Source: Hoylesella loescheii (GTDB lineage Bacteria > Bacteroidota > Bacteroidia > Bacteroidales > Bacteroidaceae). From it: a DNA stretch of 64,000 bases. Of the stretch, positions 30,039 through 36,051 are shown piece by piece; within the stretch, counting starts at the first letter, position 1; each line of letters opens with the position of its first letter. Under the pieces are notes generated by a model. The model was given only the letters and a program-made list of their open reading frames with translations. It did no database searches and was not told the origin of the DNA. The translations under genes and the position numbers were made by a program. The stretch spans positions 1 through 64,000 of the forward strand of contig JADYUK010000005.1 in the NCBI GenBank assembly GCA_021531755.1, given 5' to 3'.

Positions 30039-31442
30039 ATGAGAAAATCATTCATCATGTTATGCCTCCTCTCTTTGGGAGCATTATGTTCTCATGCACA
30101 GGACGCATGGGAGACTACTTACAAGCAGATTGAGGCACGCATTGTCGCCCCAACATTCCGGGACAAATGTTACAAAGCCTCTGTCAAGCAAGCCAACTCG
30201 GCACGTAAGAACCAGAAAACCATCAACTCTGCCATAGCCAGATGCTCAAAGGCTGGCGGCGGCAAGGTTGTCATTCCCAAGGGTAAGTATATGACAGGTG
30301 CGATAACGCTCCTGTCAGGTGTCAACCTTGTCATTGATGAGGGTGCAGAACTCGTTTTCGCCTTTGACCGTGACCTCTATCCCAATGTTGTGACCCGATG
30401 GGAGGGCCTTGACATCATCAATTACCAGCCATGCATATATGCCTATGGACAGAAGAACATAGGCTTGACAGGCAAGGGTATTATAAATGGCAACGGCTCA
30501 AACGAGAGATGGTGGTACATGAAGGGAAACAAACACCATGGATACCATGAGGGCGTTGATGAGTGGCAGGGTACTGACAAGATTGGTACACGCGCACAGC
30601 TGTTGAAGATGGCAGACAATGCTGTCCCTGTAGAGAAACGTGTCTTCGGCAAGGGAAAAGGCCTGCGTCCACAGCTCGTCAACTTTGTCAAATGCGAGAA
30701 TGCCATTATCGAGGGCGTAGAGCTCCGTGACTCTCCTTTCTGGGTTATCCACCCATTGTTTGTCAAGAACCTCACTGTCCGCGATGTGAAGATATACAAT
30801 GAGGGACCTAATGGAGACGGATGTGACCCGGAATCGTGCGAGGACGTGCTCATTGAGGGATGCACCTTCCATACAGGCGACGATTGCATAGCGTTGAAGT
30901 CAGGCAGGAATGCTGATGGCTTGAGAGCTGCAACACCTTCACAGAACATCATCATCCGCCGATGCAAGATGGCCGACGGACACGGAGGAGTGGTTATCGG
31001 CTCAGAGATATCTGGTGGCGTGAGAAATGTGTTCGCTGAGGATTGCGACATGGACTCCCCTAATCTTGACCGTGTCATAAGAATAAAGACAAACACCTGC
31101 CGTGGAGGAGTCAATGAGAATATCTATGTCAGGAATATCCGCGTCGGAGAGTGTCGTGAGGCAGTCATGAGAATCAATCTCGTATATGAGCCAAAGGAGA
31201 TAGCCGAGCGTGGCCATATACCGACTGTACGCAATGTCTATGTGGATAATGTCGTGTGCAAGAAATCCAAGTATGGCATCTTGTTGAACGGCCTCACAGA
31301 GAAAGACTCGAAGACACCTCAGATATATAACATAAATGTGACAAACTGCAATTTCGGAGGACTTTCAGCCGAACCCCTTTATAAGACTGGACTCGTGAAG
31401 GATATCAAGCTGGAGAATGTCACCGTCAGTGGAATCCTCTGA
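30039..31442 (+). CDS. Polygalacturonase, glycoside hydrolase family 28
   Basis: Cleaves galacturonan chains of pectin. A 20-residue signal peptide ends at SHA, followed by a right-handed beta-helix. The catalytic motifs of GH28 are present in order: NGDGCDPESC (about residue 258), TGDDCIALKSGRN (about 280), GHGGVVIGSE (about 314) and RIKT (about 348). The 467-residue length is typical for Bacteroidota enzymes. It is likely periplasmic or surface-linked (no lipobox, so not a lipoprotein). A second GH28 follows 159 bp later. Endo- or exo-action and the preference for rhamnogalacturonan cannot be decided. Confidence 0.93.
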   Translation: MRKSFIMLCLLSLGALCSHAQDAWETTYKQIEARIVAPTFRDKCYKASVKQANSARKNQKTINSAIARCSKAGGGKVVIPKGKYMTGAITLLSGVNLVIDEGAELVFAFDRDLYPNVVTRWEGLDIINYQPCIYAYGQKNIGLTGKGIINGNGSNERWWYMKGNKHHGYHEGVDEWQGTDKIGTRAQLLKMADNAVPVEKRVFGKGKGLRPQLVNFVKCENAIIEGVELRDSPFWVIHPLFVKNLTVRDVKIYNEGPNGDGCDPESCEDVLIEGCTFHTGDDCIALKSGRNADGLRAATPSQNIIIRRCKMADGHGGVVIGSEISGGVRNVFAEDCDMDSPNLDRVIRIKTNTCRGGVNENIYVRNIRVGECREAVMRINLVYEPKEIAERGHIPTVRNVYVDNVVCKKSKYGILLNGLTEKDSKTPQIYNINVTNCNFGGLSAEPLYKTGLVKDIKLENVTVSGIL

Positions 31443-31601
31443 CCCCCTTTGGCGTAAGAGTCTTGACAATCAGGAAGACAGGACGATTTTTTAGCCTGAA
31501 TGTTGAGAGCGGGATATTGAGAGACTTGCCCTCCCCGGTATCCCCACTGACCGGAAGGGTAGCAATTCATATCATTGAACCCACCTAAATCTATAATTAT
31601 T

Positions 31602-34247
31602 ATGAGAAAAATAAGTTTGCTATTATTAGCTATTCTCTCTACCGTCGGTGTTCTGGCCGATGGTTGGGACACAAACCTTTATAAGCAGATAGAGCAGAGC
31701 ATCCAGGCTCCGGTATTCCGCGACAAGGTATACAAACCTGCGGTGAAACCGACAAACAGCGCATTGAAGAATCAGAAGGCTATAAACCGCGCCATAGAAC
31801 GTGCCTCAAAGGCAGGCGGCGGTAAAGTGGTTATCCCTGAAGGCGTTTACATGACAGGAGCCATACGTCTTCTCTCAGACGTCAACCTTGTTGTGTCGAA
31901 AGGAGCCACACTGCGTTTCGCTTATGAGCCAGCCCTCTATCCGCTTGTCTATACAAGATACGAGGGGCTTGACCTCTATAATTATTCTCCTTGCATATAC
32001 GCCAATGGCGCAAAGAACATCGGCATTACCGGCGAAGGCACGATAGACGGAAATGGAGCTAACGAGACATTCTGGCAGTGGACAGGTGTCGAGCGCTTCG
32101 GATACAAGAAAGGCGTGACCACCGAGGACTCACGTTTCCCACGGGATGGCAATAGCCTCGGCTACAGAGCCATACTCCAGAAGATGTGTGAGGACAATGT
32201 CCCTGTTAAGGACCGCGTGTTCGGCATGGGCAAGGGGTTGCGTATGCAGCTCGTCAATCCTGTCAACTGTGAGAATATCCTTATCGAGGGGGTGACAATG
32301 CTCAACTCCCCATTCTGGGTCATGCATCCACTGTTCTCCAAGAACATTACCGTGCGCAAGGTCTACGTATACAACGAAGGCCCAAATGGTGACGGCTGCG
32401 ACCCTGAGTCGTGCGAGAACGTCCTGATAGAGGATTGTGTCTTCCATACAGGCGATGACTGCATAGCCATAAAGTCAGGCAGGAATGGCGATGGCCGTAG
32501 AGATGGCCGTCCGTCGAAGAATATTATCGTGCGCCGCTGCAAGATGGAGGATGGCCATGGAGGTGTGGTCATAGGCTCAGAGATCTCAGGAGGCGTTGAG
32601 AATGTCTTTGCTGAGGATTGCGAGATGTCCTCCCCAAATCTCGACCGTGTACTGCGCATAAAGACAAACACTTGTCGTGGAGGTGTCACAAAGAATGTCT
32701 TCATGCGCAATGTCCGTGTCGGAGAATGCCGTGAGGCTGTCTTGCGCATAAATATCAACTACCAGCCCAAGGAGGCGGCTGAGCGCGGACATATACCATA
32801 TGTGCACAATGTATGGATGGAGAATGTCACATGCGGAAAGTCCCGTCATGGCATTATCATAAATGGAGTGAAGGAGGCAGATGCTGTCTATGACATACAT
32901 GTGCGCAACTGCTCGTTCACAGGAGTGACAGACAAACCTGTGGTCAGGGAGAACCGCATGCACGATATTCATCTTGACAATGTTAGCGTCAATGGCTCGC
33001 TCGTGCTTGCCGATATGCCATACAAGAGCTACGCCGAGTGGCTGACACGCTCCGAGATGAAGAGGGTCCCCAACCCCATATACCTCGACTTCACCGACTC
33101 CAAGAAACATCCCAAGGGCAAATGGTCGTATGTCATGGGCATAGAGCTTGAGGGAATGCTCGACACATATCTTGCACATGGAGGTGACGACATCCTCGAC
33201 TATGTGAAGAGATACCCCGAGCAGATGATTGCTGATGACGGAACCACAACGGGCTTCAAGTACGAGGATTTCAATCTCGACAATGTCCGCACGGCGCGCT
33301 TCATCTACCGCATGAACAAGATAGCCCCCCGCAAGGGAAATGACATCGCCCTGAGGACATTCTTCCGCCAGCTCATCAACCAGCCACGCACAGACGAGGG
33401 CGTCTACTGGCACAAGAAAATCTACCACGACCAGGTATGGCTCGACGGAATCTATATGGGTCTGCCTTATAAGACCATAGCCGCGCCAGAGATGGTAGCA
33501 CAGGGTATGACGGTAGCTTCTAAAGGCATGCCACGGAAGAACGCCCGCTTGACTAAACAGCAGCAGAAGAAAGAGCTCAAGGCGTACTACGATGATATCC
33601 TCCATCAGATAACGATGACAGACGCCCGCACATATGACGAGGCCACCAATCTCTGGAAACACGCATGGGACTCCAAGCACGGCATGTTCTGGGCAGACAA
33701 GGAGACAGGTCGTTCAAAGCATACATGGGCACGTGCCCTCGGATGGTTCGCCATGGCACAGGTCGAGATTCTTGACCATCTGCCCGCTGATTATGACGGG
33801 CGTGAGAAGATTATCGACATGCTCCGTCGCACTATGACCTCCTGCAAGCAGTATCAGGACAAGGAGACAGGCCTGTGGTACGATGTCATGGATGTCGACT
33901 CTCCCGAGAATTATCTTGAGGCGACAGCCTCATGCATGTTTGCCTATGCCATGCTCAAGGGCGCGCGTCTTGGATATCTTGATTCCTCATTCCGCGAGGC
34001 TGGAATAAAGGCGTACAAAGGTATTATCCGTAATTTCATACGCATCAATCCTGACCTTACAATCTCCCTCACTCGCTGCTGCTCTGTCAGCGGACTTGGC
34101 CCAGAGAAGTCACCACACCGTGACGGTACATTCAAGTATTACATGTCTGAGCCTATACGCGATAACGACGCGAAAGGCATAGGCCCATTCATATGGGCGA
34201 CACTCGAGATGGAAAGCCTCGGGTATGACACATCGAGCGATTATTGA
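31602..34247 (+). CDS. GH28 polygalacturonase fused to GH105 unsaturated uronyl hydrolase
   Basis: A two-domain enzyme of 881 residues. A signal peptide (MRKISLLLLAILSTVGVLA) precedes a GH28 beta-helix similar to the preceding gene (NGDGCDPESC at about 263, TGDDCIAIKSGRN at about 284, GHGGVVIGSE, RIKT). From about residue 480 the sequence becomes a GH105 (alpha/alpha)6 barrel: KWSYVMGIELEGML, WARALGWFAMAQ and a late RDGTFKYYMSEP. GH105 enzymes release delta-4,5-unsaturated galacturonate made by pectate or rhamnogalacturonan lyases. The start at 31602 is chosen because the signal peptide begins there. Fusing both activities allows one protein to trim saturated and unsaturated chain ends. Confidence 0.93.
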   Translation: MRKISLLLLAILSTVGVLADGWDTNLYKQIEQSIQAPVFRDKVYKPAVKPTNSALKNQKAINRAIERASKAGGGKVVIPEGVYMTGAIRLLSDVNLVVSKGATLRFAYEPALYPLVYTRYEGLDLYNYSPCIYANGAKNIGITGEGTIDGNGANETFWQWTGVERFGYKKGVTTEDSRFPRDGNSLGYRAILQKMCEDNVPVKDRVFGMGKGLRMQLVNPVNCENILIEGVTMLNSPFWVMHPLFSKNITVRKVYVYNEGPNGDGCDPESCENVLIEDCVFHTGDDCIAIKSGRNGDGRRDGRPSKNIIVRRCKMEDGHGGVVIGSEISGGVENVFAEDCEMSSPNLDRVLRIKTNTCRGGVTKNVFMRNVRVGECREAVLRININYQPKEAAERGHIPYVHNVWMENVTCGKSRHGIIINGVKEADAVYDIHVRNCSFTGVTDKPVVRENRMHDIHLDNVSVNGSLVLADMPYKSYAEWLTRSEMKRVPNPIYLDFTDSKKHPKGKWSYVMGIELEGMLDTYLAHGGDDILDYVKRYPEQMIADDGTTTGFKYEDFNLDNVRTARFIYRMNKIAPRKGNDIALRTFFRQLINQPRTDEGVYWHKKIYHDQVWLDGIYMGLPYKTIAAPEMVAQGMTVASKGMPRKNARLTKQQQKKELKAYYDDILHQITMTDARTYDEATNLWKHAWDSKHGMFWADKETGRSKHTWARALGWFAMAQVEILDHLPADYDGREKIIDMLRRTMTSCKQYQDKETGLWYDVMDVDSPENYLEATASCMFAYAMLKGARLGYLDSSFREAGIKAYKGIIRNFIRINPDLTISLTRCCSVSGLGPEKSPHRDGTFKYYMSEPIRDNDAKGIGPFIWATLEMESLGYDTSSDY

Positions 34248-34738: not shown

Positions 34739-35215
34739 TTACCCTTTTGTATGTTTGCCCATAAGATAATTGTCCAGCCTGTATGTTGCGAGTGTCTCGT
34801 AGCGTGATCCTGGTCTACCATAATTCGCATAAGGATGAATGCTTATGCCACCACGGGGTGTGAAGAGGCCTATCACCTCTATATATTTTGGTTCCATGAG
34901 ACGTATGAGGTCTTTCATGATGACGTTGACGCAATCCTCATGGAAATCACCGTGGTTGCGGAATGAGAACAGGTAGAGCTTCAGCGATTTCGACTCAACC
35001 ATGCGCTCGCCAGGTATATATCTTATCTTTATCTCTGCAAAGTCAGGCTGTCCTGTTATAGGACACAACGATGTGAATTCAGGGCATAGAAACTCAACCC
35101 AGTAATCGTTCTCCTTATGCTTGTTCTCGAATGTCTCGAGCACCTCTGGGGCATAGTCGCTTCTATATACAGTCGATTTGCCCAATGCTTTCAGTCCCTC
35201 AGATTCTCTATCCAT
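34739..35215 (-). CDS. queF: NADPH-dependent 7-cyano-7-deazaguanine reductase
   Basis: Reduces preQ0 to preQ1 in queuosine synthesis. The 158-residue unimodular enzyme has the nucleophilic cysteine in [10 protein letters not shown] (C51) with D58 seven residues on, and the QueF motif ESKSLKLYL (residues 74-82). It begins 8 bp after the transporter gene on the same strand. No queC, queD or queE is next to it, although queC often stands between these two genes in relatives. With a transporter upstream, it fits salvage of preQ0 from outside the cell. Confidence 0.95.
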
Positions 35216-35223
35216 ATTGTTGT

Positions 35224-35898
35224 TTAGAATATATTATAGCTTATACCATTATCGTACACATCTTCCCCCTCGTGCTTTTTCACAAGTCTCACAACATTCA
35301 TCGTTACTGGCAGGGCTATCACCTCATATGCCGTTTTCAGCACTACTTGCCATAGCATGAGATATGGCAGCTCGTCGGTAGGTACCACACCTGCCAAAGC
35401 GAGAGGGAAGAAGATTATGCTGTCAACACTCTCTCCGAATATTGTGCTCAGGATGGCTCGCCATGAGAAATGCTTTCCCTTATTGATGATTTTCATCCTC
35501 GACATGACGAATGCGTTGACGAAAGAGCCTGCTATGAACGCTATGAACGATGCTGCTGCTATGCGTGGTGCAAGCCCGAAGATGGCGTGGAATCCCTCGT
35601 CTCCTCTCCAGTATTCAGCCCCAGGAAGCCAGTCGCACAGTGCGCCAGCAGCTACAAAAAAGAAATTCAGGAAAAAGCCTTGCCAGATAAGAAGCTTCGC
35701 CTTGCGGTATCCCCATACCTCACAGACACAGTCGTTTATGATGTAGCTGATAGGGAAGATAATAAGTCCGCCAGTCTGGCTGTGATTGAAGAATGAGATT
35801 TGTTTTGTCTCAAAAATGTTTGCCGCGATGAGGCAAACCGTGAAGAGCGTGCTGAGAAACATGAACAGCAGGCTCACTTGTGTCTTTTCTTTTTTCAT
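35224..35898 (-). CDS. Queuosine precursor transporter
   Basis: A 224-residue integral membrane protein of the YhhQ (DUF165/VUT) family, with about six hydrophobic segments and the family block [19 protein letters not shown]. YhhQ of E. coli imports preQ0 and preQ1. The start at 35898 lies 5 bp after the predicted riboswitch pseudoknot tail, so translation is likely controlled by preQ1 itself. queF follows directly. The family and the riboswitch point to the same role. Confidence 0.92.
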
Positions 35899-35902
35899 TT
35901 TT

Positions 35903-35940
35903 CTTGTTTTTATTTAGATGGGGTTACCAAGCACCCATCC
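35903..35940 (-). promoter_or_regulatory. preQ1-I riboswitch
   Basis: On the minus strand GATGGG (35939-35934) pairs with CCCATC (35922-35917), enclosing the 11-base loop TGCTTGGTAAC. An A-rich tail follows (TAAATAAAAACAAG), and its CAAG (35906-35903) is complementary to CUUG in the loop, giving the H-type pseudoknot of this class. The arrangement closely matches the Thermoanaerobacter preQ1-I aptamer (GGGU, GUAACCCC, AAAACAAG). It lies 5 bp before the start codon, so ligand binding would hide the ribosome entry site. Confidence 0.85.
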
Positions 35941-36043: not shown

Positions 36044-36051
36044 CAAAGGTA
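36044..36051 (-). promoter_or_regulatory. Promoter -7 box for the queuosine operon
   Basis: TACCTTTG on the minus strand matches the -7 consensus, 146 bp before the start codon and upstream of the riboswitch. A TTG lies about 20 bp further up. Confidence 0.65.

Follow-up and report, generated by a model that had tools for sequence, protein, structure and literature searches.

The window, the whole 64,000-nt stretch of Hoylesella loescheii DNA analysed here, contains a predicted queuosine-precursor transporter gene with a short structured leader. The question is whether this leader is a preQ1 riboswitch and, if so, of which type, what it would sense and how it would act on the genes behind it.

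The yhhQ leader in the window

The transporter gene, yhhQ (COG1738; positions 35224..35898, minus strand), scored 113.7 bits against TIGR00697 (cut-off 50.95), the family of queuosine precursor transporters. It is followed after 8 nt by queF (34739..35215, minus strand), which encodes a preQ0 to preQ1 reductase of type QueF-II (TIGR03139, 172.8 bits, cut-off 86.9). Both scores being above the cut-offs, the operon of transporter and queF that the initial annotation had described was confirmed; queF itself lies outside the region (35224-35940) that had been given. Two neighbouring related ORFs of the window, at 30039-31442 and 31575-34247, resemble, by eye, polygalacturonase-like glycoside hydrolases that are secreted; compared with the first, the second has an extra C-terminal domain.

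Upstream of the yhhQ ORF the minus strand reads GGAUGGGUGCUUGGUAACCCCAUCUAAAUAAAAACAAGAAAAAUG. All the pieces that had been named in this leader (P1, a CUUG/CAAG loop-tail pseudoknot and an A-rich tail) are present on this strand, in an element of 35903-35940 with the layout of a preQ1-I-type H-type pseudoknot. P1 is formed by GAUGGG (35934..35939) and CCCAUC (35917..35922), and G35940 and U35916 may add a G-U pair to it. The loop between the two strands, U-G-CUUG-GUAA-C, begins with a U immediately after P1 (35933), carries the 5' strand of the pseudoknot stem P2 (CUUG, 35928..35931) and ends with 'AC' ahead of the 3' strand of P1. The C of this pair (35923) is the expected preQ1 specificity base, the role described for this position in PMC11625349, and the A before it is 35924. 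The A-rich tail loop L3 (35907..35916) leads to the 3' strand of P2 (CAAG, 35903..35906), which is separated by four A's from the yhhQ start codon (35898-35896). The gap is thus 4 nt, and not 5 bp as had been claimed. An early by-eye alignment, in which a G took the place of the preQ1-binding C, was abandoned, since P1 as GAUGGG/CCCAUC leaves C35923 unpaired and a C is found there in 52/52 aligned elements. About 100 nt upstream of P1, a pattern match to TAnnTTTG, which we take to be the consensus of the -7 promoter box, provides a candidate -7 box (36044..36051, minus strand).

When run on a 201-nt stretch, the Rfam preQ1-I model RF00522 gave the element 16.2 bits (cut-off 39, E 0.43), and an Rfam search of the 64-kb window led to no match at gathering level. 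In a search of the whole genome, unrelated places reached up to 16.5 bits with RF00522, and the window element was not among the six matches listed. The Infernal check that had been proposed thus yielded a low score, no better than chance matches in the genome, and the statement that the leader 'fits the preQ1-I aptamer very well' failed as a statement about the covariance model. At gathering level RF00522 called 0 of 20 related loci; in permissive mode, on 20 partly overlapping loci, it gave a single match (29.6 bits, in L193), with none in L117, L185, L190 or L099. The thermodynamic fold of the element was ordinary (z -0.13) and uninformative. Had there been only the Rfam and folding results, we would have dropped the finding. 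We kept the riboswitch identity despite the failure of RF00522 because the comparative evidence overrules it; what fails here is a single model, and none of the structural features.

Recurrence, covariation and gene context

The closest named relatives of the window genome are Prevotella, Segatella and allies (Segatella being placed by NCBI in the order Bacteroidales). Among 201 genomes of the family, 164 had a yhhQ homologue, and 30 of these loci were kept; the best 80 of 185 further relatives were also fetched. The 111 yhhQ loci gave 107 distinct leaders (the identical pairs being L007/L008, L009/L042, L014/L103 and L043/L046), and such locus counts are not species counts. The element stood directly ahead of the start codon in 104 of these 107 leaders. 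The misses were L035 and L036, which carry a Bacteroides-type variant, and L016 (2170-2269, minus strand), where P1 and the loop are intact and 66 nt, versus the usual 6-12, precede the CAAG tail. By eye, part of this 66-nt insert could form a hairpin. Our segmentation of the leaders set wrong loop boundaries for L022, L023 and L032 and a wrong tail for L016; the start codon of L032, the single locus with a 0-nt spacer, is perhaps wrong as well.

From 53 leaders of relatives, the window leader included, we built a covariance model, R1. On the window genome it gave 46.6 bits to the element, with the window leader in the training set, and 17.5 bits to the next best place; three low-scoring loci of the same genome (L129-L131) were treated as noise. 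The 46.6 bits fall in the lower part of the 35.7-63.3-bit range, and P1 of the window copy has 6-7 bp versus 3-5 bp in nearly all relatives, as might be expected if this copy had decayed and control had been lost. Its pocket-type and pairing positions are intact, however, and we consider such decay very unlikely.

At E <= 1e-4, R1 found matches in 139 of 301 genomes of the family, a count that includes the training genomes. At E <= 1e-3, it found them in 46 of 295 genomes of the order (30 of 184 genera), though in five of these 46 the matches were below 30 bits. In a set of 395 phylum genomes that included few from this order, matches above 29 bits occurred only in the window genome (G000), G005, G032 and G584. 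As all four belong to this order, the element is a feature of the order as far as R1 reaches. The 26 phylum-wide loci with matches below 29 bits (L135-L160) had no Q gene within the locus of about 3 kb and were rejected as noise. In viral contigs, a DNA-pattern scan for the commonest core gave no match. When 20 yhhQ leaders from genomes without an R1 match were inspected by eye, 15 were of the Bacteroides type, defined by a loop UCUAG or UCCAG with a tail CAGGA, and one (L234) was a CUUG/CAAG variant, while no element was seen in L217, L220, L222 and L233. In the Bacteroides-type leaders L216, L223, L225-L232 and L235, a small conserved hairpin (GCCGUGAAUAGCGG) was noticed by eye directly upstream of P1. 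A pseudoknot finder written in Python returned 204 elements, of which 28 were not CUUG/CAAG and six of those credible, and it also returned 8 elements in shuffled loci. Because it gives chance matches, only aligned elements were counted.

In a first alignment (A2; 53 of 57 distinct cores, leaving out L016, L032, L084 and L117), two pairs of P1 showed changes on both sides, and the cells so changed numbered 45 versus 12.6 ± 2.7 after shuffling, which here and in A3 ignores relatedness (0/500). The number of pairs changed on both sides (2 versus 2.2) and of further pair types (8 versus 8.3) did not exceed the shuffled values, and P2 was invariant among these 53 closest leaders. Alignment A3 included tandem and Bacteroides-type copies (52 of 53 rows, the chance match L041:4672-4704 being left out). 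There, 97.4% of the pair cells were standard, 54 cells were changed on both sides versus 15.5 ± 2.9 after shuffling (0/500), and four pairs were changed on both sides versus 2.8 (10/500); the count of further pair types was not unusual (10 versus 9.3, 215/500). As a control, sliding the partners by 1-3 columns made pairing fall to 30-62%. One P2 pair was UA in 42 rows, CG in 6 and UG in 4, and the next was UA in 45 and GC in 1, its 6 mismatches being the A.A of Bacteroides-type rows. It is the Bacteroides-type elements and the upstream copies of tandem arrays that make P2 covary. Across relatives P2 takes the forms CUUG/CAAG, CCUG/CAGG and CUGG/CCAG. On the evidence of these alignments P1 and P2 covary and the element is real; judged by R1 score and covariation, it is far from chance.

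R1-derived loci with at least 41 bits had yhhQ, queC or queF at the match in 51/51 cases, versus 0/29 for the lower-scoring loci. Sixteen of the 51 had already been picked via yhhQ, 12 of them being in the R1 training set. Since yhhQ leaders had served to train R1, a fair count takes only the loci of at least 41 bits at places not picked through yhhQ, and 35/35 of these had a queuosine gene. Other copies precede queD-queE (L161), queC-queF (L162, L198, L199), queC-queF-queD-queE (L197) and queF (L201), the protein families coming from a profile search for L161, L162 and L197 and the genes being named by eye for L198, L199 and L201. G005 and G584 have two copies each, before different queuosine genes. 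R1 had no match at queC of the window genome. The sole exception to the association with queuosine genes among the checked loci was a 50.2-bit copy in L196 (3021-3059, minus strand; G117:C42:84020-84058), which is not ahead of a Q gene. At this locus a second yhhQ leader with some flank lies on the same contig, ahead of an unrelated ORF, an apparent duplication. As read from these loci, the gene context points to the ligand of the element.

A hairpin and an A-rich start region might also be conserved for translation efficiency or for protein binding, with no riboswitch involved. PMC6847099 describes Bacteroidetes as naturally devoid of Shine-Dalgarno sequences, with start-region structure and upstream adenines tuning translation, and Rfam makes no call in the window or in the 20 related loci. 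Such an origin would account poorly for a covarying pseudoknot with conserved pocket-type bases that recurs before yhhQ, queC, queD and queF, and elsewhere only in L196 among the checked loci; we regard it as highly improbable. Recurrence, covariation and the conserved pocket-type bases together bear out the riboswitch identity and the pseudoknot that had been proposed.

The features that define the class are also found. The element is an H-type pseudoknot of P1 and P2 with an A-rich L3, in which the last four A's before CAAG are present in 52/52 aligned elements. The U after P1 (U35933 in the window) and the specificity C ahead of the 3' strand of P1 (C35923) are each conserved in 52/52. The 'AC' that marks type II preQ1-I according to PMC11625349 and PMC8752633 occurs in 50/52, with A35924 in the window. 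The U before the specificity C and the CUA in the 3' part that go with type I are replaced here by AC and CAAG, and the pyrimidine-rich loop and AAGG Shine-Dalgarno in P2 of type III are likewise absent (CAAG, no AAGG).

Proposed expression platform, ligand and queuosine-precursor salvage

In 107 leaders (a set without L007 and L016 that still includes three repeats), the aptamer ended 0-6 nt before AUG, most commonly 3 nt. Only 5 of these 107 had a Shine-Dalgarno-like 4-5-mer within 20 nt, and A made up 50-95% at each position from -13 to -1. The spacing lends support to the earlier proposal that the element acts on translation. Because Shine-Dalgarno motifs are rare in the leaders, the switch probably blocks ribosome loading at the A-rich start region. 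From the sequence, the covariation of P1 and P2, the pocket-type bases, the gene context and the rarity of Shine-Dalgarno motifs, we infer that the element is very probably a type II member of the class I preQ1 riboswitches, which would bind preQ1, occlude the start region and thereby shut off yhhQ translation, probably together with that of queF, which follows closely.

When preQ1 is scarce, the weak pseudoknot would be open and its A-rich 3' part free; in this mRNA, which has no Shine-Dalgarno sequence, that part is where ribosomes would land. Plentiful preQ1 would pair with C35923, P2 (CUUG/CAAG) would stack on P1 and the A's of the tail would dock. The folded RNA, which ends 4 nt before AUG, would then block loading of the 30S subunit, and uptake would fall.

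Control could instead be exerted on transcription, by termination or by pseudoknot-stabilised pausing. The B. subtilis type II member acts in this way according to PMC11625349, and pausing requires no terminator. As the aptamer lies 0-6 nt before AUG in the 107 leaders, a terminator would not fit between it and the gene, and we consider control at transcription improbable compared with control of ribosome loading.

With regard to the ligand, the same aptamer might let the cell sense preQ0, or preQ0 and preQ1 alike, and so report the imported substrate rather than the product of QueF. The operon encodes both a YhhQ-family transporter and QueF; E. coli YhhQ was reported in PMC5372724 to be involved in preQ0 transport; and type II Tte favours preQ1 over preQ0 by only 17-fold (PMC10622847). 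Known class I aptamers prefer preQ1, as stated in the same paper (PMC10622847), however, and the pocket-type bases found here are the usual ones. Sensing of preQ0 is thus unlikely, though the most plausible of the alternatives, and preQ1 remains the preferred ligand.

The initial annotation had presented the operon as lacking queC and the organism as one that may take up preQ0. The first point is true of the operon and untrue of the genome (assembly 99.35% complete), which has a full queC elsewhere, as an open ORF at G000:C9:52197-52808 (186.8 bits); its product scored 168.7 bits against TIGR00364 (cut-off 150.3). Tgt (477.1 bits) and QueA are also present. QueA matched at two places, C55:143323-144273 and C8:3744-4937, the latter in two pieces of one frame. 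The proposed search of the genome for queD and queE had a different outcome from that for queC. The QueE of G005, used as the single query (E <= 1e-10), had no match in the window genome, and the same search found a match in 33 of 60 genomes of the genus. A true QueD was not found either, the only PTPS-type protein scoring 42.8 bits versus the QueD cut-off of 89.25. This protein has no Cys ahead of the HGH motif, where presumably a true QueD would carry one. The PTPS/QueD-like protein without the usual Cys, at L127:2210-2776 (G000:C30), was seen by eye to have a C-terminal CxxC...CxxC and to adjoin a Fur-like gene.

Compared on QueC, QueF, Tgt, QueA, QueD and QueE, the window genome matches variant Ac of PMC6593275, described there as having QueA, QueG/QueH, QueC, QueF and Tgt without QueD/QueE, with Q, preQ1, preQ0 and 7-carboxy-7-deazaguanine (CDG) as salvageable compounds. 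Since QueC is present, the candidates for the salvaged compound include CDG besides preQ0. To judge from this gene content, salvage of CDG or preQ0 by the host is likely; this part of the earlier proposal stands, owing to the missing queE and true queD and not to a missing queC, and with CDG as a further candidate.

Tandem copies and relation to known preQ1-I riboswitches

Nine loci were found in which two or three aptamers lie head to tail before one yhhQ start codon. There are three copies in L117 (Segatella baroniae DSM 16972; 2403-2497) and L200 (861-954), and two in L099 (2438-2498) and L177 (1473-1534). L183, L185, L186, L189 and L190 have three copies each, the middle one being, by eye, of the Bacteroides type or partly degenerate. 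At least three lineages are represented, S. baroniae, one uncultured Prevotella (L099) and one unnamed genus (g14) with the other seven loci. The units measure about 28-33 nt and the linkers 0-4 nt, and only the last unit abuts AUG. The upstream copies have a P2 of the form CCUG/CAGG in L183, L185, L186, L189 and L190, and CUGG/CCAG in L177. These compensating changes argue that the six upstream copies are functional now or were so recently.

Compared with the Tte and Bsu sequences as we take them to be, the element resembles the type II preQ1-I riboswitches of Thermoanaerobacter tengcongensis and Bacillus subtilis (RF00522) in its H-type pseudoknot, the U after P1, the AC ahead of the 3' strand of P1, the A-rich L3 and the use of the 3' tail in P2. 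Like the Tte switch, which acts on translation, it also lies immediately ahead of the start codon. Unlike known type II members, it has a P2 of four Watson-Crick pairs (CUUG/CAAG), Shine-Dalgarno-like motifs are rare, the RF00522 score is far below the cut-off, and some relatives have it in tandem. With the type III riboswitch of E. coli yhhQ it shares the transporter gene and a pseudoknot adjoining the start codon; the E. coli element has a real AAGG Shine-Dalgarno in P2 and a short pyrimidine-rich loop (as described in PMC10622847), whereas the present one has CAAG and A-rich flanks. The type I riboswitch of Carnobacterium antarcticum has the same fold, and PMC11625349 describes indirect occlusion by it even with the Shine-Dalgarno sequence moved away, the mode that we propose for the present element. 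Type I members differ by having UC, not AC, ahead of the 3' strand of P1 and a CUA in the 3' part (PMC11625349, PMC8752633), and by binding two ligands.

Control of yhhQ by preQ1 riboswitches was already known (PMC5372724), and PMC11625349 already reports types I and II from Bacteroidota, so that the window element belongs to a known kind. What appears new within the literature searched is the Bacteroidales group missed by RF00522, the expression platform free of Shine-Dalgarno sequences, and the tandem arrays. Table 3 of PMC9481103, a 2022 survey, places preQ1-I among the classes not found in tandem, while tandem aptamers are known for the glycine, c-di-GMP-I and glutamine riboswitches (PMC9481103). 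The present arrays resemble these in having two or three aptamers before one gene, and differ from other tandem classes in being built of units of about 28-33 nt that are joined by 0-4 nt and share a single start codon. Among the matches listed in our literature search there was no tandem preQ1-I riboswitch and no such element in Prevotella, and the sequence list of McCown 2014 (PMC4145258), the key survey, may include some members of the group.

Tentatively, and with somewhat less than even confidence, we propose that these elements form a large Bacteroidales subgroup of type II, invisible to RF00522 and free of Shine-Dalgarno sequences, in which the aptamer's own A-rich loop and P2 strand would be the ribosome landing region and folding alone the switch. 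The same proposal takes the arrays to be the first tandem ones of preQ1-I, in at least three lineages and nearly without linkers, with several sites serving one platform and probably giving a steeper or stabler response.

Because RF00522 called 0/20 loci, queuosine control in these bacteria may have gone largely unannotated. For riboswitches whose mRNA has no Shine-Dalgarno sequence, a 2024 review (PMC11625349) predicts their existence and counts them as a challenge to the field. Whether a pseudoknot by itself suffices to block initiation could be tested on the Bacteroidales set as it occurs in nature. Cooperative sensing by a very small aptamer could be tested on the tandem arrays, of which some show compensating changes in the upstream pseudoknots.
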